Source: Oscillospiraceae bacterium
Lineage (GTDB): Bacteria; Bacillota; Clostridia; Oscillospirales; Ruminococcaceae
Assembly: GCA_017460835.1 (NCBI GenBank)
Contig: JAFUAD010000064.1
Location: 1-47,254, forward strand
DNA length: 47,254 nt
Reading direction: 5' to 3'
The notes under the pieces are model-generated. The model saw only the letters and a program-made list of their open reading frames with translations. It made no database searches and was not told where the DNA came from. Below, one piece after another: positions 7,228 to 38,845 of this stretch; position 1 is the stretch's first letter; every line of letters begins with the position of its first letter. The position numbers and the translations under genes were made by a program.

Positions 7228-7269
7228 GACTGCGGAATTTGGCAGTATTGCCAAAAAAAATAAAAGCGC

Positions 7270-7298
7270 TTGCAATCTCAGCGAAAGTATAGTAAAAT
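7270..7298 (+). promoter_or_regulatory. pgi promoter with cre-like overlap
   Basis: TTGCAA (7270-7275), 17 bp, TAAAAT (7293-7298). A sequence at 7261-7274 matches the CcpA operator TGWNANCGNTNWCA except at two fixed positions and overlaps the -35. A small hairpin (GCTCCGG/CCGGAGC, about 7352-7370) lies in the leader. Confidence 0.7.
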
Positions 7299-7405
7299 AT
7301 AGAAGTATAAGTGATACTGTTGCCTTTTCGGGAACAGTCGCTTGTGACAGCAGGCTCCGGCTCGCCCGGAGCAGGCAAATACAGAGTGTGGAGGATGTAA
7401 CAAAT

Positions 7406-8740
7406 ATGGCTTTGAAGCTGAATACAAGCTATTTGTCCGGCTTCCTCGGAGAGGACGAGCTGAAGGGAATCGCCGTTCAGGCGGAGACCGCGGCGAAGGT
7501 TCTGCACGGGAAAAGCGGACTGGGCAACGATTTCCTCGGCTGGCTGACACTTCCGACGGACTACGACAAGGAAGAATTTGCCCGCATTCAGGCAGCGGCA
7601 CAGCGCATCAAGGAGCAGGCGGATGTCCTGATCGTCATCGGAATCGGCGGCTCCTATTTAGGCGCGCGTGCAGCAATCGAGCTGCTGAAATCGCCGTTCT
7701 ATAATAATATGAAGAAGGACACCCCGGATATCTACTATGTCGGCAACAACATTTCCCCGACCTATCTGAATGAGGTGCTGTCGATCTGCGAGGGCAGAGA
7801 CCTTGCAGTCAACGTCATCTCGAAGTCCGGCACGACCACCGAGCCCGCGCTCGCCTTCCGCATCTTCAAAAAGCTGCTGGAGGACAAGTACGGCAAGGAC
7901 GAGGCGAAGAAGCGGATCTACTGCACGACCGACCGCGCACGCGGTACGCTCAAAAATCTCGCGGATGCCGAGGGCTATGAGAGCTTTGTGATCCCGGATG
8001 ACGTCGGCGGCAGATTCTCTGTCCTGACGGCTGTCGGTCTGCTCCCGATCGCGGCAGCGGGCTGCGATATCGAAAAGCTCATGGCAGGCGCAAGAGCCGC
8101 GCAGGAAGCCTACAACGCACCGTTCGCAGAGAATGACTGCTACAAGTATGCGGCAATCCGCAACATCTTCTACCGCAAGGGCAAGGCCGTGGAAATGGTC
8201 GTCAGCTACGACCCCTCTATGGCGATGATGAACGAGTGGTACAAGCAGCTCTACGGCGAATCCGAGGGCAAGGACAACAAGGGTCTGTTCCCGTCCTCCG
8301 CGATCTTCTCCACCGATTTGCACTCGATGGGCCAGTATATTCAGGACGGCGCAAGACTGCTGTTTGAGACCGTTATTGATATCAAGCAGCCGAAACAGGA
8401 TCTCTTCTTAGAGCCCGATGCGGAAAATGCCGACGGCCTGAACTTCCTGACCGGACAGAACATGAGCATCGTCAACCGCCGCGCACTGGAGGGCACCATT
8501 CTGGCACATACCGAGGGCGGCGTCCCGAATATCGTGATCGAGCTGGATGACACCGCTGAGGAATCCCTCGGCTGGCTGATCTACTTCTTCGAGAAGGCAT
8601 GCGCGGTCTCCGGCTACATGCTCGGGGTCAATCCGTTCAATCAGCCCGGCGTCGAAAGCTACAAGAAAAATATGTTCGCACTGCTCGGCAAGCCCGGCTA
8701 TGAGGACATGAAGGCGGCGCTCGAAGCAAAGCTGAGCTGA
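7406..8740 (+). CDS. pgi: Glucose-6-phosphate isomerase
   Basis: 444 residues, the length of short bacterial PGI enzymes, interconverting glucose-6-phosphate and fructose-6-phosphate in the cytoplasm. Signatures: [10 protein letters not shown] (sugar-phosphate binding), [21 protein letters not shown], and the C-terminal G-V-E-S-Y-K-K-N with the catalytic Lys. Start ATG 7406 lies behind GGAGG. The frame is open back to 7166, but that part is upstream DNA containing the promoter. It is transcribed from 7270-7298 and is separated from the next gene by 102 bp. Confidence 0.96.
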
Positions 8741-8842
8741 GGCCTGCACACTGAAAACACACGGTTCCCAAAATCCATGCAGCCTGCGGGACATTCCGCC
8801 CCGCAGACGCACGAATTTGAAATAACGAAGGGAGAATTCACT

Positions 8843-9262
8843 ATGATTCAGGTAATTACCGGTAAAAGAGGCTCCGGCAAGACGAAGATTCTGCTCGGAA
8901 TGATCGACGACGCTGTGAAGGTTTCCAACGGCGACATCATCTGCATCGAGAAATGCATGAAGCTCACATACAGCGTCAACCACAAGGTTCGCCTTGTTGA
9001 CGCAGAACGCTACAACATCAGCGGCTTTGATATGTTTTACGGCTTTGTCGCGGGCGTGCTCGCCGGCAACTACGATATCAAGGAGGTCTTTGTTGACGGC
9101 ATCCTGAAGATCGGCGGCAGAAACTATGAGGAGCTGGGCGCTCTGCTCGAAAAGCTGGACATCCTCACCGGAGACGATGTGCATATGATCTTTACCGTTT
9201 CCGAGGATAATGACAGCCTGCCGGAGGCTGTGCTCAAATACCTGATTCCGCAGGCCGATTGA
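8843..9262 (+). CDS. Small P-loop protein, function unknown
   Basis: 139 residues. A Walker A motif G-K-R-G-S-G-K-T sits at the very N-terminus (about residues 7-14), followed by a Rossmann-like alternation. The hydrophobic strand ending in E-V-F-V-D-G is the best Walker B candidate. It is far too short for an AAA or ABC ATPase and resembles the short conserved P-loop proteins of Clostridia that are often auto-annotated as twitching-motility PilT. There are no pilus genes nearby, so that name is misleading. Start ATG 8843 follows AAGGGAG. The 102-bp gap after pgi holds a GC hairpin (about 8781-8803) without a T-tract. Confidence 0.7.
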   Translation: MIQVITGKRGSGKTKILLGMIDDAVKVSNGDIICIEKCMKLTYSVNHKVRLVDAERYNISGFDMFYGFVAGVLAGNYDIKEVFVDGILKIGGRNYEELGALLEKLDILTGDDVHMIFTVSEDNDSLPEAVLKYLIPQAD

Positions 9263-9302
9263 GAATATTTTTGGCGAGAACGCCACAAATGATTCCCTGC
9301 GA

Positions 9303-9331
9303 TTGACAAAACACGGCACTTTTGGTATAAT
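9303..9331 (+). promoter_or_regulatory. Perfect sigma-A promoter of yceD-rpmF
   Basis: TTGACA (9303-9308), 17 bp, TATAAT (9326-9331), 71 bp before yceD. Full consensus fits a ribosomal-protein operon. Confidence 0.9.
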
Positions 9332-9402
9332 CTATCTGTAATGCTCTGTGCAGAAAAGGCTGCTGCCGAAAGCGCCGCGCCAGATGAAAGGCGGTGTCTC
9401 AG

Positions 9403-9897
9403 ATGCAGGAAACTGCCGCAGATTACCGGATTTCCATCCGGTCGCTGCTGCTGCGTCCCGATGAAACAAAACCTGTCTCAAAGGAAATTGATGCAGAAAC
9501 CGCAAGCTCCTACGGTCTGCCGTGTCAGGCGCCGCCGACTGTGGAAGGCTTGCTCGAAAACCGCGCGGGTGTTCTGATGTTCCGGTATACCCTGCGCTGT
9601 GTTCCGCTGCTCGAATGTGACCGCTGCCTTTCCCCTGTCACCAATCCGGTGGAGGAAACCTTCACCCATGTGATCGTAACAGAAACCGCGTCAGAGCAAA
9701 ACGACGCCGAATATCTGTTGGCACCAGACGCGATGCTGGATCTCGCAGAAGTCGCTATGACGGATCTCCGTCTGTCTCTGCCGACAAAAACACTCTGCTC
9801 CCCCGACTGCAAGGGGCTCTGCCCCGTCTGCGGACAGAACCGGAACGAGCGGGAATGCGGATGTGTCTCTGCGGATATCACACTGGATTTTCAGTAA
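9403..9897 (+). CDS. yceD: YceD family (DUF177) protein
   Basis: 164 residues. DUF177 proteins are encoded next to rpmF across bacteria and are linked to 23S rRNA accumulation. Visible features: a C-x2-C pair (E-C-D-R-C-L-S-P, about residues 69-72) and the C-terminal Cys-rich G-L-C-P-V-C-G-x-N-x8-C-x-C, probably zinc-binding and typical of the Firmicutes branch. Start ATG 9403 lies behind AAGGCGG; a GTG at 9394 is in frame but overlaps that site. It is followed 45 bp later by rpmF in the same transcript. Confidence 0.88.
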   Translation: MQETAADYRISIRSLLLRPDETKPVSKEIDAETASSYGLPCQAPPTVEGLLENRAGVLMFRYTLRCVPLLECDRCLSPVTNPVEETFTHVIVTETASEQNDAEYLLAPDAMLDLAEVAMTDLRLSLPTKTLCSPDCKGLCPVCGQNRNERECGCVSADITLDFQ

Positions 9898-9942
9898 CCC
9901 GGCAGTCGTAGGATTCTATATCAAAACAAGGAGGTGCCGACA

Positions 9943-10128
9943 ATGGCTGTACCGAAGAGAAAAACTTCCAAGGCAAGACGCAATACCCGCCGTTCTGCCG
10001 TCAGCAAGCTGGCGATGCCTGCAATGAGCAAGTGCTCCAACTGCGGCGCGTTCAAAGCGCCCCACAAGGTTTGCAAGCAGTGCGGTTATTACAATGGCGT
10101 AGCAGTGCTCAAGATCGAAGAGGACTGA
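9943..10128 (+). CDS. rpmF: 50S ribosomal protein L32
   Basis: 61 residues, the standard length. N-terminal [13 protein letters not shown] is the L32 signature, followed by a four-Cys zinc ribbon (C31-x2-C34 and C44-x2-C47), so this is the zinc-binding form. Start ATG 9943 follows AAGGAGG. It is the last gene of the yceD-rpmF operon and a terminator follows at 10153. Confidence 0.97.
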
Positions 10129-10152
10129 TCCGCAGGATCTTATGCGAATTGC

Positions 10153-10191
10153 AAAAGGGGAGAGGGACGGAAGTGTACTTCTCCCTTTTTT
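10153..10191 (+). terminator. Terminator of yceD-rpmF
   Basis: Hairpin AAAAGGGGAGA/TCTCCCTTTT with one bulged G, running into a T-tract, 24 bp after rpmF. Confidence 0.8.
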
Positions 10192-10195
10192 GTTT

Positions 10196-10295
10196 GCGGA
10201 TGTGGCGAAGGAGTAATGCGGCCGCGGGTATGAGGCCGGCTTTGTACGGCGGGATATCTTCGACGATTTCGGGGGTGCAATTCCCCTCATCCGCA
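10196..10295 (+). other. tRNA-Leu-like sequence without a canonical anticodon arm
   Basis: A perfect seven-pair acceptor GCGGATG (10196-10202) / CATCCGC (10288-10294) encloses a T-arm GGGGG/CCCCT with loop TGCAATT, one base off the usual TTCAATT. GCGGATGTGGCG and CATCCGCACC resemble the two ends of Firmicutes tRNA-Leu as I remember them. A D-arm can be drawn (GCG/TGC), but the central arm GGCC/GGCC has a 10-nt loop without U33, and the long variable region folds poorly. It may be a tRNA pseudogene or a tRNA-like RNA in the DUF512 leader. Confidence 0.5.
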
Positions 10296-10336
10296 CCCAT
10301 CACGAACCGAAAACTGATAGCCGGAGGCGGAGCGAC

Positions 10337-11644
10337 ATGATCGAAATAACGGATGTGACAGAAGGCTCTCCGGCCGCAAGAGCAGGGCTTTTGGCGGGCG
10401 ATCTGCTGATCGCGGTCAATGATACGGTGATTCACGATGTCATTGACTACCGCTTTGCCGTCACGGAGCGGAGACTGAAAATCCGCTTTCAGCGGGAGGG
10501 CGCCGAGCAGGAGATCACGCTGCATAAGCAGGAATATGACGACCCCGGGCTGGGCTTTGCGACCGCGCTGATGGACGAAAAGCGCACCTGCGGCAATCAC
10601 TGCATTTTCTGCTTTATTGACCAGAACCCGAAGGGAATGCGCGACACGATCTATTTCAAGGACGACGATGCGCGGCTTTCCTTTTTGCAGGGCAGCTATA
10701 TCACCCTGACCAACCTGACCGACGAGGATGTGGACCGGATCATCAAAATGCACCTGACAGTGAATGTTTCGGTGCATACGACCGACCCGGTTCTGCGCCG
10801 GAAAATGCTCGGAAACCGGTATGCGGGCGAATCGCTGCGGCATCTAAAGCGCATGGCGGATGCCGGCGTTTCGATGAACTGCCAGATCGTGCTCTGCCCG
10901 ACATGGAACGACGGAGACCACCTTCACAGGACGCTCGCAGACCTGTTCGGCATGGTGCCGGCGGTCGAGAGCATCGCGGTGGTTCCCTTCGGCATGACGA
11001 AATTCCGGCAGCATCTCTGCCCGATTCCCGCATTTACGCAGGAAACCGCGCGCGCTGCCGTCGAGCAGATCGAGGCGGTGCAGCGCTGGAGCCTCTCCGC
11101 GAACGGGCGGCGGATCGTCTATGCCTCCGATGAGCTCTATCTGCTCGCGGGGCTGCCGCTCCCGGAGGACGATGCATACGAGGGCTACCCGCAGTATGAA
11201 AACGGCGTCGGCATGCTGCGCTATCTGATGAATGAGTTTTACGAGGCGCTGGAGGATGCCGAATATGACGGAGAACCGCGCTTTCTGACGATTGCGACGG
11301 GGAGCGCCGCGGCGCCCTTCCTCGAAAAGATGATGCGCGATCTCGAAGAAAAATTCCCGGCAGTCCATTGCCGGGTGATAACGGTGCTCAATGATTTTTA
11401 CGGGCACTCCATTACGGTTGCGGGGCTGCTGACCTTTCAGGATCTGCTCGCGCAGCTCAAAGGGCAGGAGCTCGGCAGTGCCGTTCTGCTCTCGGAAACC
11501 TGCCTGCGGCATGACGATGTGTTCCTCGACGACAAATCCCGCGCGGATTTAGAGGCGGCGCTCGGCGTGCCGGTCATCAAGACAAAAGTAGACGGCTATG
11601 TACTGTTAGACACGGTTCTCGGGTTTTCCGACGGAACTGTGTGA
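10337..11644 (+). CDS. DUF512 radical-SAM/PDZ protein
   Basis: 435 residues: a PDZ-like domain (about 1-65, with G-S-P-A-A-R-A-G-L), then a radical-SAM-type core with C85-x3-C89-x2-C92 in the sequence C-G-N-H-C-I-F-C, which should bind a 4Fe-4S cluster, then the DUF512 C-terminal domain. The chemistry is not known for the family. Its conserved position beside der in Clostridia is repeated here and suggests a ribosome- or translation-related task. Start ATG 10337 follows GGAGGCGG. It heads the DUF512-der-plsY-gpsA operon with 36-37 bp gaps. No clear promoter lies between 10192 and 10336. Confidence 0.88.
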   Translation: MIEITDVTEGSPAARAGLLAGDLLIAVNDTVIHDVIDYRFAVTERRLKIRFQREGAEQEITLHKQEYDDPGLGFATALMDEKRTCGNHCIFCFIDQNPKGMRDTIYFKDDDARLSFLQGSYITLTNLTDEDVDRIIKMHLTVNVSVHTTDPVLRRKMLGNRYAGESLRHLKRMADAGVSMNCQIVLCPTWNDGDHLHRTLADLFGMVPAVESIAVVPFGMTKFRQHLCPIPAFTQETARAAVEQIEAVQRWSLSANGRRIVYASDELYLLAGLPLPEDDAYEGYPQYENGVGMLRYLMNEFYEALEDAEYDGEPRFLTIATGSAAAPFLEKMMRDLEEKFPAVHCRVITVLNDFYGHSITVAGLLTFQDLLAQLKGQELGSAVLLSETCLRHDDVFLDDKSRADLEAALGVPVIKTKVDGYVLLDTVLGFSDGTV

Positions 11645-28273: not shown

Positions 28274-28708
28274 ATGCAAAAGAAATGCAAAATACTCTTT
28301 GCCATTTTGCCGCTGATTGCCATGACTGCGGCAAGCGGTACCTTCATCAGAAGTCTCTTTTACAATTTTCACAATGATACCGTGCCGCTGTTTTCAATCG
28401 GGATTTCGTTTGTTCTGGCGATGATCTGTCTGGTGCTGCTGTTTTTTACGGTTCTCTGCGCGGTGCTGTATCTCGGCATCGGCAAAAATCCGCCCGGAAA
28501 CAGAGACAAAGCATCTCTGCTCGCATCTGCGTGCATTTTGAATCTGGGCTTCGGCATATTCTGTGCCATAAGCAAGCAGTCGCATTTTGTCACAATCACA
28601 GTCTATCTGCTTCTGACATCGTTGTGCTTTGCACTTTCTTATGCATTTTCCCGCCGGGAACAGCAAATTCCCGGCAATCATGAAAAAACGGAGGATTCTT
28701 CTCAATGA
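28274..28708 (+). CDS. Small four-helix membrane protein, unknown function
   Basis: 144 residues with four hydrophobic segments (about 8-30, 38-70, 82-100, 105-125) and a short charged C-terminus. No family recognised. Start ATG 28274 lies behind GGAGGG. It begins 28 bp after the U32 gene and overlaps the esterase gene as ATGA, so it is part of the same transcript. Composition is slightly more AT-rich than its neighbours. Confidence 0.65.
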   Translation: MQKKCKILFAILPLIAMTAASGTFIRSLFYNFHNDTVPLFSIGISFVLAMICLVLLFFTVLCAVLYLGIGKNPPGNRDKASLLASACILNLGFGIFCAISKQSHFVTITVYLLLTSLCFALSYAFSRREQQIPGNHEKTEDSSQ

Positions 28709-30264
28709 GAGCTGCTGCAATTTTCAGCGACCGCATGGTGCTGCAACGCGAAAAGCCGATCGCCGTCTGGGGCGACGGAAGGGACGGCAAACGGGTCACG
28801 GTCACGCTCGGCGGACAGAGCGACTCGTGCATCATCCGCGATGGGAAATGGTCGGTCACGCTGCCGCCGATGCCCGCTGCCGAGGGTCTGACCATGACAA
28901 TCCGGAGCGGCGCGGTCTGCATCACATTCCGTGAGATCGCGGTCGGCGAGGTCTGGCTCTGCGGCGGACAGAGCAATATGGAATTTGAGATCAAGGACGA
29001 GAAGCGCGGCGCGGAGCTCCTCCGCAGCCTGACGCCGGACTGCGGCGTGCGCTTTTACTATACGCCGAAGCAGCGCATCATCGACGGGAGCTTTGATGCG
29101 GTCGAGCGCAACACCGGCTGGGGGTATGCCGATCCGCAGGGCTCCCGCGCATGGTCGGCGGTCGGGCTGTATTTCGCACTGGAAATCGCGAAGAAGCTCG
29201 GCGTGACCGTCGGGCTGATCGGCTGCAACTGGGGCGGAACCTCCGCATCGGTCTGGGTCTCCCGCGATGTGCTGGAGCAGAACGCGGCGACCCGTCCGTA
29301 CCTTGACGACTATGACAAGGCGATGGAGGGCAAGACCGACGAGCAGGCGATCGCGGAATTCGACGAATACATCGCCTATCAGGATGTGTGGTGGGTGCGC
29401 TATTCCGAGCTGATGCAGGAGCACCCGGAGACCACATGGGAGGATGCGCAGAAAATCGTCGGAGAATCGCGCTATCCGGGGCCGATGGGGCCGAAGAACG
29501 AATGCAGGCCGTGCGGCAGCTATGAGACGATGCTGCGGCGCGTCTGCCCGTATACGCTGCGCGGATTCCTTTATTATCAGGGCGAATCGGACGATCACCG
29601 CCCCGATGCCTATGAAACGCTGCTGACGGCGCTGATCGACTGCTGGCGGCGCGACTGGGGCGATCCCGAGCTGCCGTTCCTCAATGTGCAGCTTCCGATG
29701 TTCCGCTATGCGCACGACCCGGATTACAAGCACTGGTGCAGAATCCGCGAGGCGCAGGACAGGGTATACCGCAAGATGAAAAATACGGGGCTTGCCGTCC
29801 TGACCGATTGCGGCGAGCTCGACAATATCCACCCGACGGACAAGGCGCCGGTCGGGCACCGGCTCGCGCTTCAGGCGCTTTATCATGTTTACCGCAGGCT
29901 CTCCGCAGAGGAGGCGTGTGCGCCGATGTACCGCAGCAGCTATGCCTCCGGGAGCAGCTTTACGGTTCTGCTGCAAAATGCACACGGCGGCTTCCGGCTG
30001 ACCGGCGAGCCGGCAGGCTTTGAGCTTGCGGGCACAGACGGCGTCTTCTATCCGGCGGTTCCGGTTTTCGGGAAAAACCGCATCACCCTCACCGCTCCGG
30101 AGGTGCAGGAGCCCATGTATGCGCGGTATGCATGGACAAACTACGCGGAGGTTTCCGTTTTCGGCATGAACGGTCTGCCGCTCGCGCCCTTCCGCACCGA
30201 TTGCTTCACAGAGGAGCAGACAGCAGACACGGAAAAGAAAAACGCCCCCTCTGCTTCGATGTAA
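28705..30264 (+). CDS. Sialate O-acetylesterase-like SGNH hydrolase
   Basis: 519 residues of the SASA/SIAE esterase family, which removes O-acetyl groups from sialic acids or other glycans. Nucleophile S90 in G-G-Q-S-N-M-E, the Y-Y-Q-G-E-S-D block, and catalytic D373-x-x-H376 (D-N-I-H-P-T-D-K) are intact. There is no signal peptide or membrane segment, so it acts in the cytoplasm on imported sugars, or its substrate differs. Start ATG 28705 overlaps the preceding membrane protein gene. Last gene before the strong terminator at 30347. Confidence 0.88.
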   Translation: MRAAAIFSDRMVLQREKPIAVWGDGRDGKRVTVTLGGQSDSCIIRDGKWSVTLPPMPAAEGLTMTIRSGAVCITFREIAVGEVWLCGGQSNMEFEIKDEKRGAELLRSLTPDCGVRFYYTPKQRIIDGSFDAVERNTGWGYADPQGSRAWSAVGLYFALEIAKKLGVTVGLIGCNWGGTSASVWVSRDVLEQNAATRPYLDDYDKAMEGKTDEQAIAEFDEYIAYQDVWWVRYSELMQEHPETTWEDAQKIVGESRYPGPMGPKNECRPCGSYETMLRRVCPYTLRGFLYYQGESDDHRPDAYETLLTALIDCWRRDWGDPELPFLNVQLPMFRYAHDPDYKHWCRIREAQDRVYRKMKNTGLAVLTDCGELDNIHPTDKAPVGHRLALQALYHVYRRLSAEEACAPMYRSSYASGSSFTVLLQNAHGGFRLTGEPAGFELAGTDGVFYPAVPVFGKNRITLTAPEVQEPMYARYAWTNYAEVSVFGMNGLPLAPFRTDCFTEEQTADTEKKNAPSASM

Positions 30265-30447: not shown

Positions 30448-30476
30448 TTGACAGAACGCACAAAACGGGTTATAAT
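30448..30476 (+). promoter_or_regulatory. Perfect sigma-A promoter of the Dlt-like operon
   Basis: TTGACA (30448-30453), 17 bp, TATAAT (30471-30476), full consensus, 61 bp before the first gene. No other promoter is obvious inside the operon. Confidence 0.9.
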
Positions 30477-30537
30477 AAAATGTACGACTGTATCAATTCA
30501 AACGGATATTTTCATCTCGAAAGGGAAGGCTTTTGCT

Positions 30538-32034
30538 ATGAAACGGTCACGATCTGTTCAATCATCATCCGGGAGTAAATTCAAGCGGACCGCGTTTGCC
30601 CTCGTCGGCAGCGCAATTCTGCTCGGCCTTTGCGCAGTCCTGATCACCATGATCTTCACGGGCGGCAATTCCATCAACGCGCAGACAAGCGTGCTCGATT
30701 ACGCAAAGAGCGAGCTGACAATCTGGAACGGTGAGCCGCTCCCGACCGCTGACGATTTTCTCAATGACAACACGCGTTCACTGGTCGATTCCGCACGGTA
30801 TCTCGTCGTGCCGGGAACGGACTCCGGCGATCAGAATATCGCAATTCTGATGCAGCTCGGAGACGGCACCACCAGAACCGAAAATGCCGTTCTGACGATC
30901 CGCGAGCCGGTCATCACATGGGAGCTCGGTACCGCGGCAACCTCCGCTGAGCTGCTCGGCGAGGAGTATTCCGATGCCGTGCTGTCCGTTTCGCTCTCCG
31001 ATATCAAGGCGGTCGGCTCCTATGACATCACAGTCCGCACACACGGCAAGGAGCTGCCCTTCACGCTCGTTGCACAGGACACCACGGCGCCTGTCGTCAA
31101 GATCTATGACACGCTGAGCTTCTATGTGCATCAGGAGATCTCCGCAAAGGATTTCGTGGAATCCTGCGAGGATCTCTCTGCGGTCGAATATCACTTCTCC
31201 GAGGAGCCCACCACCATGCTTCAGGGCACCTATTCGACACAGCTCATCGTCACCGATGCCAGCGGCAACAGCACGACCTGTGAGATCACCTATGCCGTCA
31301 GCGGCGACGGCGAGCCGCCTGTCATCAGCGGCGTTACCGATATGACAACCATCGTCGGCATTCCGGTCAGCTATCTGCACGGCGTGACGGCAAATGATAC
31401 GCACGACGGCGAGGTCGCGGTCACTGCGAAGGAGCAGGAGGGCTTCAGCCTTCGCAAGGCGGGCGATTACACCGTGACATTCTCCGCACAGGACGAGGCG
31501 GGCAATGTCGCAACTGAGACTGCAACGCTGCACGTTCTCCCCTCGATCGACGAGGATGTGATCGAGCAGATCACCGAGGACGATGTGCTCCGCATGGGCG
31601 ACTATATCGTGCAGTCCATTGACCACGAGGGCGACACCTCCCGTCAGTACCTCCGCAAGCTCTACAACTATGTACAGGGGCATATGGTCTATCACGGCTC
31701 CAGCCAGCGCTACGAGTGGTATCAGTCCGCTGCGGTCGCGCTCTATCAGGGCTACGGCGACTGCCGCAATTACTACGGCTTCGGCCGCCTGCTGCTCACC
31801 TGCGCAGGCTTTGAGAATATGATGGTCGAGAAGGTCAAGCCCTATGAGGGCGCAACGAACCACTACTGGAGCCTCGTCAATGTGGACGGCGCATGGTATC
31901 ACTTCGACACCACGCCGCGCTATAAGGTCTCCGATTTCTTCCTCTGGACCGATGCCCAGATGGACGCATTCTCCGCGAAGAATAATCAATGCTTCAACCG
32001 CGACAAGAGCCTCTATCCGGCAACACCGGAATAA
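30538..32034 (+). CDS. Membrane-anchored transglutaminase-like protein with Ig-like domains
   Basis: 498 residues: cytoplasmic basic start, membrane anchor at about 21-43, two or three beta-sandwich (Ig/cadherin-like) repeats between about 110 and 345 (D-A-S-G-N-S and D-E-A-G-N-V turns), then a transglutaminase-like domain with a complete triad C409 (Y-G-D-C-R-N), H442 (T-N-H-Y-W) and D457 (H-F-D-T-T-P). Bacterial members may be proteases, transamidases or peptidoglycan-acting. The active domain faces outward. First gene of the Dlt-like operon, so it may act on the same surface polymer or its carrier protein. Start ATG 30538 follows AGGGAAGG. Confidence 0.82.
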   Translation: MKRSRSVQSSSGSKFKRTAFALVGSAILLGLCAVLITMIFTGGNSINAQTSVLDYAKSELTIWNGEPLPTADDFLNDNTRSLVDSARYLVVPGTDSGDQNIAILMQLGDGTTRTENAVLTIREPVITWELGTAATSAELLGEEYSDAVLSVSLSDIKAVGSYDITVRTHGKELPFTLVAQDTTAPVVKIYDTLSFYVHQEISAKDFVESCEDLSAVEYHFSEEPTTMLQGTYSTQLIVTDASGNSTTCEITYAVSGDGEPPVISGVTDMTTIVGIPVSYLHGVTANDTHDGEVAVTAKEQEGFSLRKAGDYTVTFSAQDEAGNVATETATLHVLPSIDEDVIEQITEDDVLRMGDYIVQSIDHEGDTSRQYLRKLYNYVQGHMVYHGSSQRYEWYQSAAVALYQGYGDCRNYYGFGRLLLTCAGFENMMVEKVKPYEGATNHYWSLVNVDGAWYHFDTTPRYKVSDFFLWTDAQMDAFSAKNNQCFNRDKSLYPATPE

Positions 32035-32056
32035 CTGCAGAAGGAATATGCAAAAA

Positions 32057-32758
32057 ATGAAGAAAAAGCTCGGAATCATCGGCGGTCTCGGCCCGATGGC
32101 GTCTGCTCTGTTTTTGCAGATTCTGACCGCGCAGACGGATGCCGGCCGCGATCAGGAGCATCTGGAGGCGCTGCTTTACAGCCGCCCGCAGACGCCGGAC
32201 AGAACCGCGTTTCTGCTCGGAAAATCGCAGGACAACCCCCTGCCGGTCATGCTGGATTCCGGCAGACAGCTTGAAAATATGGGCTGTGATGTGCTCGTCA
32301 TCCCCTGTATGACGGCCTACGGCTTTTACGATCAGCTCAAAACCGCATTTCAGGCGGAGCTGATCAACCCGATCACCGAAAGCGCCCGCGTCCTCAAAGC
32401 GCGGGGCTGCAAGGCGGTCGGCATCATGGCAACGGACGGCACTTTGCAGGTCGGCACCTTCCAGAAGGCGCTGGCCGCTGAGGGCATCCGCCCCGTGATT
32501 CCCGACAGCGGGAATCAGCGGGAGGTCATGAGCCTGATCTATGACGATGTGAAATCCGGAAAGGATGCGGATATGGAGCGGTTCCATGCCGTCGCGCACT
32601 CGATGCGCGCACAGGGCGCCGAATGCGTCATCCTCGGCTGTACGGAGCTCTCGGTCATCAACTACCGGCACGAGATCGGACACGGCTTCCTCGATGCAAT
32701 GGAGGTTCTGGCACAGTGTGCGATCACCGCGTGCGGATATCAGGTGAAACAATCATAA
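32057..32758 (+). CDS. Aspartate/glutamate racemase family enzyme
   Basis: 233 residues. Begins K-L-G-I-I-G-G-L-G-P-M-A, the family start. Both catalytic cysteines are present: C84 in I-P-C-M-T-A-Y and C195 in L-G-C-T-E-L. The usual C-N-T of the first site is C-M-T and the following His is Tyr, so substrate choice may differ from Asp or Glu. Cofactor-independent racemases of this family act on free amino acids in the cytoplasm. It lies 22 bp after the transglutaminase-like gene and 15 bp before the adenylation gene, suggesting it supplies the D-form of the amino acid used by the operon. Start could also be ATG 32048. Confidence 0.85.
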   Translation: MKKKLGIIGGLGPMASALFLQILTAQTDAGRDQEHLEALLYSRPQTPDRTAFLLGKSQDNPLPVMLDSGRQLENMGCDVLVIPCMTAYGFYDQLKTAFQAELINPITESARVLKARGCKAVGIMATDGTLQVGTFQKALAAEGIRPVIPDSGNQREVMSLIYDDVKSGKDADMERFHAVAHSMRAQGAECVILGCTELSVINYRHEIGHGFLDAMEVLAQCAITACGYQVKQS

Positions 32759-32773
32759 AAAGAAGGTTGCAAC

Positions 32774-34285
32774 ATGCAGACGAATGTACTCGAATATCTC
32801 GAACAGACACTGCCCCGCGTGCCGGAGAAAACGGCCTTTGCTGACGATAACATGCAGCTCACGTTTTCTCAGGTCTCGCAGAATGCCCGTGCGATCGGCT
32901 CAGCGCTGCACGCGGACGGGCTGTACGGCAAACCGGTCGTGGTGTTCATGGAGAAATCACCCGCGGCGATCAACGCCTTTTTCGGCGTGATTTATGCGGG
33001 CTGCTATTATGTCCCGCTGGATGTCGAAATGCCCGCGTTCCGGATCGAAATGATCCTTCAGCAGCTAAAGCCCCGCGCCGTCATCTGCGATGCGGTGACA
33101 AAGCCGCAGCTCCCGCAGTTCGGCTATACCGGCAAAACCTATCTGTTCGATGATGTCATCAGCACGGAGATTGATGATGCGGCGCTCGCGGAGATCCGCG
33201 CAAAGCAGCTCGATATTGACCCGATCTATATTGTGTTCACCTCCGGCTCGACCGGCGTGCCGAAGGGCATTCTCGCCTGCCACCGCTCGGTCATCGACTA
33301 CATCGAAAACCTCTCCGAGACACTCGGATTCAACGAAGAAACCGTATTCGGCAACCAGACGCCGCTCTATTTCGACGCCTGCCTCAAGGAGCTCTACCCG
33401 ACGCTGAAATTCGGCGCGACCACATGGCTGGTGCCGAAGCAGTGCTTCTCGTTCCCGATTCAGCTCGTCGAATACCTGAACGCGCATAAGATCAACACCG
33501 TCTGCTGGGTGGTCTCGGCGCTGACAATGATCTCCGCGACCGGCACCTTCAAGACGGTGAAGCCGGAAACGCTGCACACGATCGCATTCGGCAGCGAGGT
33601 CTTTCCGGTCAAGCAGTTCAAGCGCTGGCGCGAGGTTCTGCCGGAGGCGAAGTTCACGAACCTCTACGGCCCGACTGAGGCAACCGGCATGAGCTGCTTC
33701 TATCATGTCAACCGCGATTTCGAGGAGACCGACGCCATTCCGATCGGCAGACCCTTCCGGAATACCGGCATCATCCTGCTCGATGAAAACAACAAGGAGG
33801 CTGCCTTCGGGGAGCCCGGTGAAATCTGCATCCGCGGAACCTGCCTGACGATGGGCTATTTCGGGCAGCCGGACAAGACCGCCGAGGTCTTTACGCAGAA
33901 TCCGCTGCAAACGCGCTTCCCGGAGCTGATCTACCGCACCGGCGATATCGCGCATTACAATGAGGACGGCGATCTGGTCTTTGTTTCGCGCAAGGATTAC
34001 CAGATCAAGCACATGGGACACCGCATCGAGCTCGGCGAGATCGAGATCAACTGCGGGCTGTATGACGGCGTCGAGGCAGTGGGCTGCATCTACGACAAGG
34101 TCAAGGGCAAGATCGTGCTGTTCTATACGGGCAAGGTAGAAAAATCCGAGCTCGCCGCGTACCTCAAGGAGCGCCTGCCGCGCTACATGCAGCCGAACAA
34201 AATCCGGCAGCTCGACGAGATGCCGCACACCCCGAACGGCAAGCTCGACCGCAAGGCACTGACCGCAATCTACGAGGGAGAGTAA
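32774..34285 (+). CDS. DltA-like amino acid adenylation enzyme
   Basis: 503 residues, the length of a stand-alone adenylation enzyme such as DltA. Activates an amino acid with ATP and loads it on a carrier protein. Core motifs: T-S-G-S-T-G-V-P-K-G (156-165), Y-G-P-T-E-A-T, Y-R-T-G-D, and the catalytic Lys in P-N-G-K-L-D-R-K (K490). The amino-group Asp is kept (F-D201). The Cys that selects D-Ala in DltA (F-C-G-E) aligns with G273 in F-G-S-E, so D-alanine cannot be assumed. The partner carrier is the next gene. Start ATG 32774 follows AGAAGG. Confidence 0.9.
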   Translation: MQTNVLEYLEQTLPRVPEKTAFADDNMQLTFSQVSQNARAIGSALHADGLYGKPVVVFMEKSPAAINAFFGVIYAGCYYVPLDVEMPAFRIEMILQQLKPRAVICDAVTKPQLPQFGYTGKTYLFDDVISTEIDDAALAEIRAKQLDIDPIYIVFTSGSTGVPKGILACHRSVIDYIENLSETLGFNEETVFGNQTPLYFDACLKELYPTLKFGATTWLVPKQCFSFPIQLVEYLNAHKINTVCWVVSALTMISATGTFKTVKPETLHTIAFGSEVFPVKQFKRWREVLPEAKFTNLYGPTEATGMSCFYHVNRDFEETDAIPIGRPFRNTGIILLDENNKEAAFGEPGEICIRGTCLTMGYFGQPDKTAEVFTQNPLQTRFPELIYRTGDIAHYNEDGDLVFVSRKDYQIKHMGHRIELGEIEINCGLYDGVEAVGCIYDKVKGKIVLFYTGKVEKSELAAYLKERLPRYMQPNKIRQLDEMPHTPNGKLDRKALTAIYEGE

Positions 34286-34312
34286 ATTCCAAGAAAAAGG
34301 AGAAAACCTGTC

Positions 34313-34552
34313 ATGAGTGAAACACTGAGCACCATTATTGAGATTCTTCAGGATCTGCACGAGGATGTGGATTTTGAGTCTGAGGACAAGCTGATCGACA
34401 AGAAAATCCTCGATTCCTTCGATATCGTGACCCTGATCTCGGAGCTGAGCAACGAGTTCGATATCACGATCCCGGCGGACAAGATCATCCCGGAGAACTT
34501 CAATTCCGCACAGGCTCTTGCCAATATGGTCGAGGAGCTTGAGGACGAGTAA
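34313..34552 (+). CDS. Acyl carrier protein (DltC-like)
   Basis: 79 residues, acidic and helical. The phosphopantetheine attachment serine is in L-D-S-F-D-I-V (Ser near residue 35), preceded by the K-L-I-D-K-K-I-L loop. DltC carriers have this short form. It would carry the amino acid activated by the adjacent adenylation enzyme to the membrane O-acyltransferase. The stop shares one base with the MBOAT ATG (TAATG), giving tight coupling. Start ATG 34313 follows AAAAAGGAG. Confidence 0.92.
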   Translation: MSETLSTIIEILQDLHEDVDFESEDKLIDKKILDSFDIVTLISELSNEFDITIPADKIIPENFNSAQALANMVEELEDE

Positions 34553-36144
34553 TGCTGTTTACCGATTCGATCTTTGTGATCGGGCTGATTCTGCTCTGTA
34601 TCATCTATTTTCTTGTTCCGAAGCGGTTTCGCTGGATGCTGCTGCTCGCCGGCAGCATCGGCTTTTATGCCTATTCGGGGCCGCTCAACCTGATCTATAT
34701 GGCGGTCACCGCGCTCAGTACCTATCTGATTACCCTCAGAATGGAGAAAATGGCGGCGGCTGCAAAGGAAACGGTCGCGGCGCATAAATCGGAATGGAGC
34801 AGGGACGAGAAAAAGGCCTTCAAGGAAAAGGCGAAGTCAAAGCGGTTCCGCTGGCTGGTGCTCTGCCTTGTGCTGAATTTCGGGATGCTCGCCGTTGTGA
34901 AATACGGCGCATTCACGCTGCGCAATATCAATACGGTCATCGGCTGGTTCGGCGGGAGCAAACGCCTCCCGGTCAAACACTTCCTGCTGCCGATGGGCAT
35001 GTCCTTCTATCTGTTCCAGACAATGGGCTATGCCATTGATGTGTACCGCGAAAAGTACCCGGCGGAGAAGAATTTTGCGCGGCTCGGACTGTTCGTGTCC
35101 TTCTTCCCGCAGCTCATTCAGGGCCCGATCAGCCGCTATGACGATCTCGCAAAGGGGCTCTATGCCGGAAACGGCTATGACCCGAAGCGCGTGACGCTCG
35201 GCGTGCAGCGCATTCTCTGGGGCTATTTCAAAAAGGTCTGTCTTGCGGACCGCGTCATGCCCGCCGTCACCGCGCTGATCTCCAACACCGACCAGCATCA
35301 GGGCATGTATGTCCTGATGGGCATTCTGTATTACACGCTCCGCATTTACGCGGATTTCACCGGCGGCATTGATATCACAATCGGCATCGGGCAGGTGCTC
35401 GGCATTCCGATCACGGAAAACTTCAACCGCCCGTTCTTCTCGAAGAATATCACCGAATACTGGCGGCGCTGGCATATCACGCTCGGTACATGGTTCAAGG
35501 ATTACCTGTTCTATCCGATCAGCGTGTGTCAGCCGATGCTGAAGCTCTCCAAATGGAGCAGAGAGAAGCTCGGCAAGAATGTCGGCAAGTACCTGCCGGT
35601 CTATGTCTCCACGATCGCAGTCTGGTTCGTGACCGGTCTCTGGCACGGCGCTGCGTGGAATTTCATCGTCTGGGGTCTGATGAACGCGGTCGTCATCCTG
35701 ATCTCCGAGCGCCTGACCCCGCTCTACAACAAATTCCACAAGAAATATGCGTGGAGCAATACCCGTGCATATGACGGCTTTATGGCGCTGCGCACCACCT
35801 TCCTGATGGGACTGCTGCGCATGTTCGACTGCTATCTCGATGTGCCGCTGACCTTTAAGATGTTCGGCACGATGTTCTATAAATGGAATCCGCAGATCCT
35901 CTGGGACGGCAGCCTGATGAAGCTGGGTCTGTCGAAGCCGGATTACCTCGTGCTCGGCGTCGGCATCGTGCTGCTCTTTACGGCAAGTATGCTGGGGCGG
36001 CGCGGGAGCGTCCGCGAGCGGCTCTATGACAAGTCAAAGCTCCTGAGCTGCTGCATGACCGTGGCGCTTTTGCTGATCGTCGTTGTCTTCGGCGCATACG
36101 GCATCGGCTACGATTCCAGCCAGTTCATCTATAATCAGTTCTGA
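34552..36144 (+). CDS. MBOAT family membrane O-acyltransferase (DltB/AlgI-like)
   Basis: 530 residues with about ten or more membrane segments. The MBOAT catalytic His is H365 in T-G-L-W-H-G-A-A-W-N, and the family block F-F-P-Q-L-I-Q-G-P-I-S-R-Y is present. It moves an acyl group from a cytosolic thioester across the membrane to a surface polymer. It is longer than typical DltB (~400), with a charged cytoplasmic insert at about residues 64-102 and extra C-terminal helices, closer to AlgI in size. The carrier-protein gene upstream favours an aminoacyl donor over acetyl. Confidence 0.9.
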   Translation: MLFTDSIFVIGLILLCIIYFLVPKRFRWMLLLAGSIGFYAYSGPLNLIYMAVTALSTYLITLRMEKMAAAAKETVAAHKSEWSRDEKKAFKEKAKSKRFRWLVLCLVLNFGMLAVVKYGAFTLRNINTVIGWFGGSKRLPVKHFLLPMGMSFYLFQTMGYAIDVYREKYPAEKNFARLGLFVSFFPQLIQGPISRYDDLAKGLYAGNGYDPKRVTLGVQRILWGYFKKVCLADRVMPAVTALISNTDQHQGMYVLMGILYYTLRIYADFTGGIDITIGIGQVLGIPITENFNRPFFSKNITEYWRRWHITLGTWFKDYLFYPISVCQPMLKLSKWSREKLGKNVGKYLPVYVSTIAVWFVTGLWHGAAWNFIVWGLMNAVVILISERLTPLYNKFHKKYAWSNTRAYDGFMALRTTFLMGLLRMFDCYLDVPLTFKMFGTMFYKWNPQILWDGSLMKLGLSKPDYLVLGVGIVLLFTASMLGRRGSVRERLYDKSKLLSCCMTVALLLIVVVFGAYGIGYDSSQFIYNQF

Positions 36145-36169
36145 TTGATTCTTTAGGGGAGTCACCCAA

Positions 36170-37234
36170 ATGGGAAAGAAAAAACGCATTTTTGCCGGGC
36201 TCGCGACCGTGACCTCCGCGGTGGTTCTGCTTGCCGCAGTGCAGCGGTTGCTCCAGCCCAAATATATGTCCGATGTCGTAGAGGGCAACCTGATCGCCTC
36301 CTATTACGACACCGGAAAGGATCACGATGTGCTGTTCATCGGAGACTGCGAGTGCTACGAGAATTTCTCGCCGGTCGAAATGTGGCGGGATTACGGCATT
36401 TCCAGTACGATCCGCGGCTCTGCGCAGCAGCTCATCTGGCAGTCCTATTATCTGCTGGAGGATACCCTCCGCTATGAAAAGCCGGATGTGGTCGTGTTCA
36501 ATGTGCTCTCGATGAAATACGGCGAGCCGCAGAGCGAAGCCTATAACCGCATGTCCATCGAAGGCATGCGCTGGTCGAAATCGAAGGTAAACTGCATCAA
36601 GGCCTCCATGACAGAGGAGGAGAGCTTCCTCTCCTATGTGTTCCCGATCCTGCGGTATCACAGCCGCTGGAGCGAGCTGACCGCCGATGACTTCAAATAT
36701 TACTTCGGGGCAGAGCCGAATTTCTTTTCCGGCTATTACCTCCGCGCCGATGCAAAGCCCGCGGAAAATGTGCCGAAGGGCACGCCGCTGATCGACTACT
36801 CCTTCAGCGAAAACTGCTGGAATTACCTCGACAAAATGATGTCGCTCTGCGCGGAAAACAACATTCAGCTTGTGCTGATCAAGGCGCCCTCCCTTTACCC
36901 CTACTGGTATGAGGAATGGGATGAGCAGATCACGGAATATGCGGAGAAATATCATCTTCCGTATATCAATTTCCTCGATCCGTCGATTCAGGAGCAGACC
37001 GGGATTGATTATGCGGCCGATACCTACGACGGCGGCCTGCATCTGAATGTATACGGCGCAGAAAAGCTCTCCAGATGGTTCGGGGCATATCTCGCAGAGC
37101 GCTATGATCTCAGGGACCGCAGCGGCGAGAGCAAGCTGGCCGCCGAATGGGACGAGATCTGCGCGCGCTATGATGCCGAGATCGCACGGCAGCTCAAAAA
37201 TTTAGAGCAATACGGCAATGTCAAGGGCGAATGA
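36170..37234 (+). CDS. DltD-like SGNH-fold protein with Cys at the nucleophile position
   Basis: 354 residues: one N-terminal membrane segment (about 8-27) and an extracellular SGNH-like domain. Block I reads L-F-I-G-D-C-E (57-61): the serine of the usual G-D-S is C60. Block II resembles R-G-S-A-Q-Q and the late acid/His pair is D287/H291 in Y-D-G-G-L-H-L-N. It fills the DltD position after the MBOAT gene, 25 bp downstream. DltD and AlgJ/X-type partners finish polymer transfer outside the membrane. The Cys may form a thioester intermediate or mark a non-catalytic protein. Start ATG 36170 follows AGGGGAG. Confidence 0.8.
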   Translation: MGKKKRIFAGLATVTSAVVLLAAVQRLLQPKYMSDVVEGNLIASYYDTGKDHDVLFIGDCECYENFSPVEMWRDYGISSTIRGSAQQLIWQSYYLLEDTLRYEKPDVVVFNVLSMKYGEPQSEAYNRMSIEGMRWSKSKVNCIKASMTEEESFLSYVFPILRYHSRWSELTADDFKYYFGAEPNFFSGYYLRADAKPAENVPKGTPLIDYSFSENCWNYLDKMMSLCAENNIQLVLIKAPSLYPYWYEEWDEQITEYAEKYHLPYINFLDPSIQEQTGIDYAADTYDGGLHLNVYGAEKLSRWFGAYLAERYDLRDRSGESKLAAEWDEICARYDAEIARQLKNLEQYGNVKGE

Positions 37235-37287
37235 CCGCCCTTTGCATAGAAACAGTTTTTGATTTACGGGAAAGGATGTTTTCAGCT

Positions 37288-37923
37288 ATGAACAAGAAAA
37301 TCGTTTGCGCGGCACTCTCTGCCATGCTGCTCTGCGGGCTGACCGCATGCGGCGGCGATGACAGCAGCACTGCCGCTTCCTCCTCTGCCGCAGAAAGCAG
37401 CGCAGCCGCCGCACCGGATGCCTCCTCCGCAGCGGACACCCCCGCAGATTCCACCGGCGATACACCGGCAGAGAGCTCCGATGCAGCACCGCAGGGGACC
37501 GTGCAGATCTCCTTTGACTATGTTGCAAACGGCGTGACCCTTGAGGTCGGCAAAGAGGCAGACGGCGTCATCGCGGCGCTCGGCACCTACGACAGTATGT
37601 ATGAGGCACCGTCCTGCGCCTTCACCGGCACGAGCAACTACTATGTTTACGGCGGCCTTCAGGTCGTCACCTATCCGGATGAGCACGACCAGAGCCTGAA
37701 TCTGCTCTATGAGGTCGATCTGCTCGATGACACCGTCGCGACCAACGAGGGCATCCGCGTCGGCAATACCTATGACGATATTGTGGCAAAATACGGCACG
37801 CCCGATCAGGAGACCGCAGTATTTGCGATGTATAAGACAGAAGGAAAGGCCGTCCAGTTCTTCTTTGACAAGACCAACCCGGACGTCATCTCCGAGATCG
37901 TGTATACGGTCATTCTGGTTTAA
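37288..37923 (+). CDS. Secreted lipoprotein, unknown function
   Basis: 211 residues: signal peptide ending in lipobox L-T-A-C (Cys near residue 20), a ~55-residue Ser/Ala/Pro/Asp linker, then a ~135-residue domain beginning V-Q-I-S-F-D-Y. No family recognised; the fold is predicted beta-rich with an I-V-A-K-Y-G-T-P motif seen in small SmpA/OmlA-like lipoproteins. Last gene of the Dlt-like operon, 53 bp after the SGNH gene and just before a terminator hairpin. Start ATG 37288 follows AAAGGATG; the frame is open further upstream but lacks a ribosome binding site. Confidence 0.8.
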   Translation: MNKKIVCAALSAMLLCGLTACGGDDSSTAASSSAAESSAAAAPDASSAADTPADSTGDTPAESSDAAPQGTVQISFDYVANGVTLEVGKEADGVIAALGTYDSMYEAPSCAFTGTSNYYVYGGLQVVTYPDEHDQSLNLLYEVDLLDDTVATNEGIRVGNTYDDIVAKYGTPDQETAVFAMYKTEGKAVQFFFDKTNPDVISEIVYTVILV

Positions 37924-37930
37924 GGCAAAA

Positions 37931-37965
37931 AACCGCGGAGGCTGCATCGGGCAGCTTCCGCGGTT
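37931..37965 (+). terminator. Terminator-like hairpin closing the Dlt-like operon
   Basis: AACCGCGGA-G-GCTGC pairing with GCAGC-T-TCCGCGGTT (14 pairs, one internal mismatch), starting 7 bp after the stop. No T-tract, so termination may be partial. Confidence 0.6.
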
Positions 37966-38008: not shown

Positions 38009-38845
38009 ATGGGATTATTCGGAAAGAAACCAAGTGCGGACAAAATCAAATACCGCAGACCTGACCGCGTTGAGCGCGGAGAATTCCGCAAGCAGGAGAT
38101 CGCAGAGCTCAGTATGCCGGATACCGTCCGGATCATCGGCGAAAGCGGCTTCCGCGAGTGCCGGAGCCTGAAGCGCGCCGAGCTCTCCAATACGCTTTGC
38201 GAGATCGGCGCCTATGCCTTCCGCGACTGCGATATGCTCGAAAATATCGTGATGCCCGGCGAGATGCGCTACCCGGACGGCTCCAGCGGCCTGCTCGGCA
38301 TCGGCTGCTTCGAGGGCTGCGGCCTGCTCCGCGAGATCGTCATTCCCGAGGGCGTTTCCGTCATCGGCGCGAACGCCTTTCACAACTGTGCCGCGCTGGA
38401 AACCGTCACGCTGCCCCGCTCGCTGCATGCGATCCGCAGCGGTGCATTCTCCGGCTGCGCGCGCCTCAAAACACTGAACATGCCGGTTGTGCCCGAGCTG
38501 ATCGCGCAGGATGCCTTCCGCGATACGCCCTGTGAAAAGCAGATCGCGGCGGTGCGCAAGCCGGTGCTGACCATAATGCACACCTCCTCCTTCGGGCTGC
38601 CGGAGATTTTCCAGTTCTCAGCCGTGCCGCGCATGATCGGCACAGAGCAGACCGAGGGCAACATGACCATTGTGCTCGATGATGTCGATGCATCGCGCAT
38701 CTGCTTCCGGATCACGGCGTATAAGCACGCCGGCGGCAGCCATGTCGTGCCCGCCGGAACCGCTGCCAGACTGTTCTATGAGGAATATGACTGCGCCGGA
38801 AAGACCGGCATGCAGAAGGAAGAGCTGGTCGCCTCTTATCGGTGA
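38009..38845 (+). CDS. BspA-type leucine-rich repeat protein (cytoplasmic)
   Basis: 278 residues. Residues about 30-175 hold five LRR_5 (BspA-like) units with the recurring I-G-x-x-A-F-x-x-C-x-x-L-x-x-I/V pattern (A-F-R-D-C, C-F-E-G-C, A-F-H-N-C, A-F-S-G-C). The last ~90 residues are a different, beta-rich segment. No signal peptide or anchor, unlike many BspA surface proteins, so it is probably a cytosolic binding scaffold. Start ATG 38009 follows AAAGAGGG. It may be read from the upstream operon by read-through of the weak 37931 hairpin. Confidence 0.78.
   Translation: MGLFGKKPSADKIKYRRPDRVERGEFRKQEIAELSMPDTVRIIGESGFRECRSLKRAELSNTLCEIGAYAFRDCDMLENIVMPGEMRYPDGSSGLLGIGCFEGCGLLREIVIPEGVSVIGANAFHNCAALETVTLPRSLHAIRSGAFSGCARLKTLNMPVVPELIAQDAFRDTPCEKQIAAVRKPVLTIMHTSSFGLPEIFQFSAVPRMIGTEQTEGNMTIVLDDVDASRICFRITAYKHAGGSHVVPAGTAARLFYEEYDCAGKTGMQKEELVASYR

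Follow-up and report, generated by a model that had tools for sequence, protein, structure and literature searches.

The window (the whole stretch of DNA analyzed, 47,254 nucleotides of contig JAFUAD010000064.1 from an Oscillospiraceae bacterium) contains a seven-gene operon that, judging from its sequence, may well encode a Dlt-like cassette for transmembrane aminoacylation that uses an acidic D-amino acid, with D-aspartate as the likeliest candidate (D-glutamate and D-cysteate being others). In the proposed pathway, the racemase (RAC) would convert the L-form of the amino acid into the D-form, which the adenylation enzyme (ADE) would adenylate and load onto the carrier protein (ACP). The MBOAT transferase would move it from the carrier to the tyrosine of its own C-terminal FIYNQF on the outer side, and Cys60 of the SGNH protein would accept it as a thioester (the Ser of DltD forms an ester). 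The SGNH protein, the transglutaminase-like protein (TG) and the lipoprotein (LIP) would then hand it to an acceptor on the outer surface. We infer the identity of the amino acid and of its acceptor, the individual chemical steps and the roles of TG and LIP; the racemase residues, a pocket lysine and the asparagine synthase present in some cassettes would fit an acidic substrate.

The initial annotation had described a perfect promoter, seven genes on one strand no more than 53 bp apart, and a hairpin at the end, all of which are borne out by the coordinates (Table 1); neighboring genes overlap by 1 base at the closest and are separated by 53 bp at the widest. Promoter-like sites are no commoner in the window than by chance (five, against a mean of 4.3 in shuffled sequences), so the argument for the promoter rests on its perfect match and not on the class of site. 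The hairpin has no T-run and was absent from the terminator scan, and it is thus not a textbook intrinsic terminator. The TG start given is one choice within a longer open reading frame (ORF) beginning at 30382.

Table 1. Features of the operon, with positions in the window
Feature	Coordinates	Strand	Evidence and remarks
Sigma-70-like promoter, TTGACA-17-TATAAT	30448..30476	+	12/12 consensus matches
TG, transglutaminase-like	30538..32034	+	Pfam PF01841 (1.1e-8) and Ig-like families; triad alignment
RAC, cofactor-independent Asp/Glu-type racemase	about 32057..32758	+	TIGR00035, NF052483; start also possible at 32049
ADE, stand-alone amino-acid adenylation enzyme	32774..34285	+	TIGR01733, 331 bits
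ACP, carrier protein	34313..34552	+	PF00550; DSF phosphopantetheine site
MBOAT, DltB-like transferase	34552..36144	+	PF03062; His365; C-terminal FIYNQF
SGNH-family protein	36170..37234	+	GDC...D/H motifs and relatives; Cys60, Asp287/His291
LIP, lipoprotein	37288..37923	+	lipobox LTAC; one Cys (110) after the lipobox
Hairpin ending the operon	37931..37965	+	inverted repeat, 15-bp arms; -29.9 kcal/mol, z -6.4

The gene set recurs in Oscillospiraceae and Lachnospiraceae, as found with the best 80 matches of the genome scan for relatives. Cuneatibacter sp. NSJ-177 carries all seven genes and Pseudobutyrivibrio ruminis DSM 9787 six, without the lipoprotein; ADE identity is 80 to 95% in members of the window's genus and about 50 to 66% in further relatives with the set. 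This conservation rules out a chance neighborhood. Close relatives without the racemase and TG genes, which the initial annotation had named, together with clear D-Ala specificity of the enzyme, as the finding that would speak for an ordinary dlt operon, were not what we encountered, the set being kept in the clade. The neighborhood comparison that it had suggested revealed two associations: the racemase tracks the ADE pocket code, and a cysteine in the SGNH protein tracks the TG gene. On this comparative evidence, the cassette is divided into a predicted donor module, formed by the adenylation enzyme and a tailoring enzyme (racemase, decarboxylase, or neither), and a predicted acceptor module, formed by the MBOAT and the SGNH protein (in its Cys form with TG and LIP); the racemase thus belongs to the donor half, and TG, LIP and Cys-SGNH to the acceptor half. 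The two predicted modules are, from the trees, recombined at least twice. On the MBOAT tree there is a single change in Cys-SGNH, and the numbers of changes on the ADE and MBOAT trees, which include loci cut by contig ends, were 9 and 5 for TG, 13 and 10 for LIP, 6 and 8 for RAC and 6 and 9 for PLP. These trees come from quick searches without a mixture model and are unrooted, giving no direction of exchange; L083 is a fragment and L077, L105, L156 and L072 are long branches. Locus counts here and below are not phylogenetically independent.

The name of the SGNH protein is based on its GDC...D/H motifs and on related proteins, since it matched Pfam Lipase_GDSL_2 weakly (19.5 bits, cut-off of 32.9) and had no NCBIfam match. 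Its Cys60 lies in the GDC motif in place of the nucleophile Ser, and the same replacement was found in 47 of the 86 SGNH rows, the other 39 having Ser. A TG gene (at least 100 bits) adjoins 42 of the 47 Cys rows and none of the 39 Ser rows, while LIP is near 37 of the 47; some of the 10 absences are at contig ends, and LIP is truly absent next to the SGNH gene in four Pseudobutyrivibrio loci. The MBOAT has the catalytic His365, and its terminal FIYNQF fits the FXYXXF of MBOAT-SGNH acyltransferase pairs, described as an acyl-shuttle motif (PMC12148441); a motif of this type ends 43 of the 45 MBOATs paired with Cys-SGNH. TG scored 35.8 bits against PF01841 (cut-off of 23) and is probably anchored in the membrane, with Ig-like domains in addition to the transglutaminase-like one. 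Its triad, Cys409/His442/Asp457 (codons at 31762, 31861 and 31906), is identical in all 51 aligned TG rows, and LIP Cys110 (codon at 37615) in all 24 aligned LIP rows. Comparing the sequences of SGNH, LIP and TG with those of solved structures was of no help, the LIP matches being weak or located on the signal peptide and linker. At the end of the stretch examined for locus L115 is another Cys-SGNH, accompanied by a lipoprotein.

A doubtful extension of the proposed pathway is an outer thiol relay, in which the amino acid would pass from the MBOAT tyrosine to SGNH Cys60 and then to the TG cysteine or LIP Cys110. The thioester energy would be kept outside the membrane, and the acidic D-amino acid would end amide-bound to an amine (of peptidoglycan or protein) and not as a teichoic ester; the free thiols could stay reduced in strict anaerobes. 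Alternatively, TG might be a peptidase or hydrolase acting on a surface protein, with a chemistry unrelated to aminoacyl transfer, so that the pathway would consist of the donor and MBOAT/SGNH genes. Transglutaminase-like folds include proteases, and Ig-like domains occur in many surface proteins. However, TG stays with the Cys-SGNH despite differing donor genes and its triad is invariant, and we consider a separate hydrolase rather unlikely.

Within the donor module, RAC scored 204 bits against TIGR00035 (cut-off of 93), and its Cys84, Cys195, Arg49 and Lys166 align with C82, C194, R48 and K164 of the Asp racemase 1jfl. We take R48 and K164 to be functional residues there; a literature search on their roles found nothing. 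The four residues are shared by 33 of the 34 aligned rows and intact in all 33 cassette racemases, the odd row being a MurI-type enzyme located 5 kb away in L139 (omitted from the pocket-code tally below, although still labeled as a racemase in the locus survey, trees and change counts). RAC also reached 195 bits against the CuyB cysteate racemase model NF052483 (cut-off of 190), as did four others of the eight cassette racemases scanned (L053 with 200.7 bits, L087, L094 and L100), while L104, L123 and L124 fell below. Naming the amino acid from this match was dropped, as five of eight is not decisive.

The ADE pocket code, with positions numbered by motif, is DAKWAGLGMK; a literature search for a ten-letter adenylation code gave no match. 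Its Lys205 corresponds to pocket position 239, occupied by Lys or Arg in 91 of the 112 adenylation loci compared; we assume a charge of this kind to be a mark of acidic substrates. A racemase accompanied this code and its close variants (DAKW[AVC]) in 33 of 47 loci and none of the 65 with other codes. Codes ending in CNK were found with a LysA/BtrK-like decarboxylase (22 of 32 loci, against 0 of 47 for DAKW). An asparagine synthase was nearby in 6/47 DAKW, 0/32 CNK and 0/4 IARW loci and in 2/29 with other codes.

The same distribution bears on the possibility that an L- or neutral amino acid is used and that the role of the racemase lies in general metabolism (such as D-Glu supply for peptidoglycan), its place in the operon being due to chance or co-regulation. 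Among 30 genomes of the genus, none had a second PF01177 protein, so they have no MurI and RAC is the sole racemase of this kind where present, which is a point in favor of a general role. The racemase is also missing near 14 of the 47 DAKW loci. In 11 of 13 tested genomes of such loci, a TIGR00035 protein over the cut-off was found (in L115 it is the cassette's own, separated by a contig end), with none in L117 and L120 and a base rate of 90/297 genomes in the window's family. Both genomes that combine a CNK code with a decarboxylase and TG (L155 and L159) carry a TIGR00035 protein as well. Some members may therefore depend on a different racemase or work with an L-amino acid. Against a general role, PF01177 proteins are entirely absent from 13 of the 30 genus genomes; all 17 with the racemase have ADE (16 on the same contig, with the genes within 1.3 kb), and 12 of the 30 have neither. 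This restriction to ADE-bearing genomes makes a general D-Glu supply unlikely for the genus, and such a role would not explain why the racemase is missing near every one of the 65 non-DAKW loci, so that we give this alternative little credence.

We judge it similarly improbable that this is an ordinary dlt operon belonging to a divergent lineage and having the racemase and TG as neighbors or as an alternative D-Ala supply. The core activities are identical, as the Dlt pathway (DltA-DltC-DltX-DltB-DltD; D-alanylation of teichoic acids) also has an adenylation enzyme, a carrier, a WHG-His MBOAT and an SGNH protein, and DltA, DltC and DltB were among the best-scoring named models for ADE, ACP and MBOAT. 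A separate classical dlt operon, for which the initial annotation had proposed a search, did not appear: no DltA or DltB was over the cut-off in this genome (88% complete) and no DltA in the 30 genus genomes (the best, from G314, reached 418/560 bits), so D-alanylation could be the task of the cassette. A cofactor-independent racemase by itself is, in principle, compatible with D-Ala. However, in profile searches the scores were about half of the equivalog cut-offs or less: 268 bits for ADE against DltA TIGR01734 (559.85), 38 for ACP against DltC NF003464 (68) and 140 for MBOAT against TIGR04091 (375). The view of the cassette as Dlt-like yet not an ordinary dlt operon thus stands, and so do the altered gate residue (Gly at ADE 273, where DltA presumably has Cys) and the Cys-SGNH. 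There is also no room for a DltX gene within the operon, the shuttle tyrosine being on the MBOAT, whereas Dlt has it on DltX, and the SGNH nucleophile is Cys instead of Ser. Moreover, the cassette adds its own TG, LIP and Asp-type racemase, the latter limited to one pocket-code group. With regard to lipoteichoic acid as a possible acceptor, three PF00884 matches, candidates for an LTA synthase, were found in the genome; of two put to NCBIfam, one was a partial match to LtaS (84.5 of 970 bits) and the second had no match.

Other known systems share parts of this arrangement. PatA/PatB-type pairs (peptidoglycan O-acetylation) have the same C-terminal FXYXXF on the MBOAT and are said to employ acyl-CoA without a carrier protein (PMC12148441), whereas the cassette has both carrier and adenylation enzyme. 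A carrier protein (Dlt) and an MBOAT-fused shuttle (Pat and others) are alternatives in the published systems compared, and the cassette family has both. In Lactococcus lactis, an Asp racemase, a D-Asp ligase and AsnH serve the D-Asp cross-bridges of the peptidoglycan (PMC4155827); RacD-AslA-AsnH likewise places an Asp racemase beside an activating enzyme and includes an asparagine synthase, as some cassettes do, but AslA is an ATP-grasp ligase, whereas the cassette would rely on adenylation, a carrier protein and passage through the membrane. BtrI/BtrK from butirosin synthesis, like the exosortase-A ligase/decarboxylase set (TIGR03098/TIGR03099), combine a carrier with an alanine-racemase-fold decarboxylase, like the sister cassettes, whereas the window's cassette has a racemase in its place. 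No earlier description of such a cassette was found in the open-licence PMC literature.

Members of the cassette family are joined to various amino-acid modules, some with a racemase, some with a decarboxylase and others with neither; in one branch the Cys nucleophile is tied to a transglutaminase-like partner. If the proposed pathway is correct, gut and rumen anaerobes would put amino acids other than D-Ala on their surfaces, with a bearing on surface charge, cationic-peptide resistance and host recognition; the thiol relay, if true, would represent a novel type of extracytoplasmic aminoacylation in which the amino-acid modules can be exchanged. As named strains (Cuneatibacter sp. NSJ-177 and P. 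ruminis DSM 9787) carry the cassette, it is directly testable.

A scan of viral contigs gave 12 loci, one of them L048 again and the other 11 at 38% identity or less. Around 42 DAKW loci (the window and those outside its genus), 199 further ORFs of at least 120 amino acids contained no family present in more than four loci. One family in four loci, including the window, looks ABC ATPase-like by eye, and a leucine-rich-repeat gene downstream recurs within the window's genus.

All seven genes of the operon described in the initial annotation (TG, transglutaminase-like; RAC, racemase; ADE, adenylation enzyme; ACP, carrier; MBOAT; SGNH protein; LIP, lipoprotein), with its perfect promoter, short gaps and hairpin, were found in the window sequence, and its domain assignments agreed with a Pfam domain search, the SGNH protein being assigned by motif and not by Pfam. 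ADE relatives (E value of 1e-40 or better) were present in 74 of the 297 genomes sampled from the window's family, many being NRPS modules judging from open frames. We compared 35 stretches around these matches (31 with at least 330 bits besides the window and 4 weaker), one IMG/VR contig and the best 80 named loci among the matches listed in GTDB species genomes. This neighborhood comparison, which included RAC and TG, bore out the proposed set, as all seven genes appeared in the window's order in five of five genus members of that locus sample. Seven further members showed the same set as far as their contigs extend. In the genus members L248 and L250, RAC is located between TG and ADE, and the contig of L249 ends within ADE. 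The cassette is real, conserved and modular. Among the best 80 GTDB loci of the matches listed, the family reaches Lachnospiraceae; Pseudobutyrivibrio ruminis DSM 9787 (L100) has a cassette without LIP, and Cuneatibacter sp. NSJ-177 (L094) has all seven genes and a second TG. Gene order is not fixed, three loci (L053, L054 and L090) having ACP-MBOAT-SGNH-AsnB-TG-RAC-ADE-LIP. Our searches of the open-licence PMC literature listed no such cassette.

The cassette putatively works like Dlt. However, the window ADE scored 268 bits with the DltA profile (560 needed), ACP 38 bits with DltC (68 needed) and MBOAT 140 bits with DltB (375 needed), and its SGNH protein lacks the catalytic Ser of the classical pathway, so the cassette is not placed in that pathway. 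The check for a separate classical dlt operon, suggested earlier, gave no protein reaching the DltA or DltB cutoff in the window's assembly (2.98 Mb, 88% complete, the window being contig C46). The DltA cutoff was reached in none of 30 genus genomes, the nearest protein scoring 418 bits (genome G314).

Pocket codes, taken from an alignment of ADE rows, were available for 112 of the 114 loci left after removing 3 duplicates from 117. A racemase was nearby in 33 of the 47 loci with DAKW[AVC] codes, and a decarboxylase in none; codes ending in CNK (32 loci) had a decarboxylase in 22 and no racemase, all four IARW loci had a decarboxylase, and the 29 loci with other codes had neither enzyme (Fisher P = 1e-17 for the racemase-code association, ignoring relatedness of loci). 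The decarboxylase of these sister cassettes is LysA-like (TIGR01048, 172 to 201 bits in three proteins scanned, cutoff of 298), resembling BtrK of butirosin, which shares fold and clade with LysA and acts on a glutamyl carrier protein (excerpt of PMC7857480). A single PF01177 protein was detected in 17 of the 30 genus genomes, all with ADE; both genes share a contig, at most 1.3 kb apart, in 16, and are on different contigs in G320. Twelve genomes lacked both proteins, and the only one with ADE but no PF01177 protein (G318) is 58% complete. None of these 30 genomes (the window's own and 29 others) yielded a second PF01177 protein, and hence none a MurI-type glutamate racemase; their peptidoglycan D-Glu would have to come from elsewhere. 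Four sister cassettes (L065, L068, L070 and L074) with code IARWCSQASK have the decarboxylase between ACP and MBOAT and lack the Asp that we take to hold the alpha-amine; perhaps these cassettes activate the side-chain carboxyl, and the decarboxylase acts on the carrier-bound amino acid. In six minimal ADE-ACP-MBOAT-SGNH cassettes (L060, L066, L067, L072, L136 and L162; codes SM[TSL]W.ALDIK) the first position is likewise not Asp.

The SGNH nucleophile position was Cys in 47 of 86 rows and Ser in 39. TG (at least 100 bits, at most 9 kb away) was near SGNH in 42 of the 47 Cys rows versus none of the Ser rows, with a 23-bit match at the Ser locus L147, and LIP (at least 100 bits) in 37 versus none, with weak matches at three Ser rows. 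Five Cys rows had no TG. The contigs of L103 and L125 start within the cassette, and L110 has TG in the locus but SGNH 4 kb past MBOAT. The other two belong to L115: for the first, the cassette's contig starts at ADE, while TG and the racemase adjoin each other at the end of another contig of that genome; the second (see table) is at the end of the retrieved stretch, a few kilobases from a full cassette. The TG catalytic triad was whole in 51 of 51 aligned rows, and the LIP Cys identical in 24 of 24. Two related lipoproteins close to the cassette of L049 lack this Cys, as does one in L099, but a distant lipoprotein of L147 contains it.

ADE and MBOAT trees, built from 87 loci, revealed recombination between a donor module (ADE and tailoring enzyme) and an acceptor module (MBOAT, SGNH, TG and LIP). 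The DAKW code required one change on the ADE tree versus four on the MBOAT tree, and the SGNH Cys one on the MBOAT tree versus four on the ADE tree. In L155 and L159, ADE nests on starred branches within the CNK clade, and MBOAT within the window-type clade (with L125, support 98); L083 is placed likewise with lower support. All three have the decarboxylase and no racemase, and match the window in having Cys-SGNH, TG and LIP. In L137 and L143 the acceptor set is joined to yet another code, with neither tailoring enzyme. L236 and L080, both from genome G133, look like a further recombined case spread over two contigs.

The window MBOAT ends in FIYNQF. In Dlt, by contrast, the FXYXXF shuttle is carried by a separate protein, DltX, while other MBOAT-SGNH systems have a fused shuttle as here but are reported to use acyl-CoA (both from an excerpt of PMC12148441). 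Of 87 MBOATs encoded at ADE loci, 78 terminate in the fused motif, counting either F or Y as its final residue. The other nine comprise seven, all of Ser type, with Pro replacing the first Phe, and those of L118 and L120, which depart in other ways. Transfer from a Tyr ester to Cys would retain acyl-transfer energy, in contrast to a Ser ester, and would thereby allow amide formation.

Aligned to archaeal Asp racemase, all 33 cassette racemases kept the residues matching C82, C194, R48 and K164, the roles of the last two in the archaeal enzyme being assumed. Lys205 in the window ADE pocket also counts for an acidic substrate, on our presumed reading of the code. Asparagine synthase was near 6 of the 47 DAKW[AVC] loci and also near 2 of the 29 with other codes; RacD-AslA-AsnH is a precedent (excerpt of PMC4155827). 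These features suggest an acidic amino acid, but not with certainty, because 14 of the 47 DAKW[AVC] loci have no racemase nearby. A TIGR00035 protein over the cutoff was found somewhere in 11 of 13 tested genomes of such loci (that of L115 is the cassette's own) versus 90 of the 297 family genomes, a rough comparison since the 13 were not drawn from that sample. The genome search also detected one in the L155 and L159 genomes and none in those of L137 and L143.

A cassette was also seen on a contig filed as viral (L048), either viral cargo or misfiled host DNA. Judging from sequence start, the gene immediately upstream of the window operon also occurs at L049; L052, another member of the genus, did not show it upstream. 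Starts similar to that of the downstream gene lie close to the cassette in L049, L052, L250, L251, L252 and L254.

Coordinates of features in the window and two compared loci
Location	Positions	Strand	Feature
Window	28705-30264		Sialate O-acetylesterase-like gene (PF03629)
Window	38009-38845		Leucine-rich-repeat protein gene
L115	7623-9290	minus	Second Cys-SGNH gene, lipoprotein beside it
L048 (IMG/VR UViG 3300022753_002859)	4596-10834		TG-ADE-ACP-MBOAT-SGNH(Cys)-LIP, no racemase
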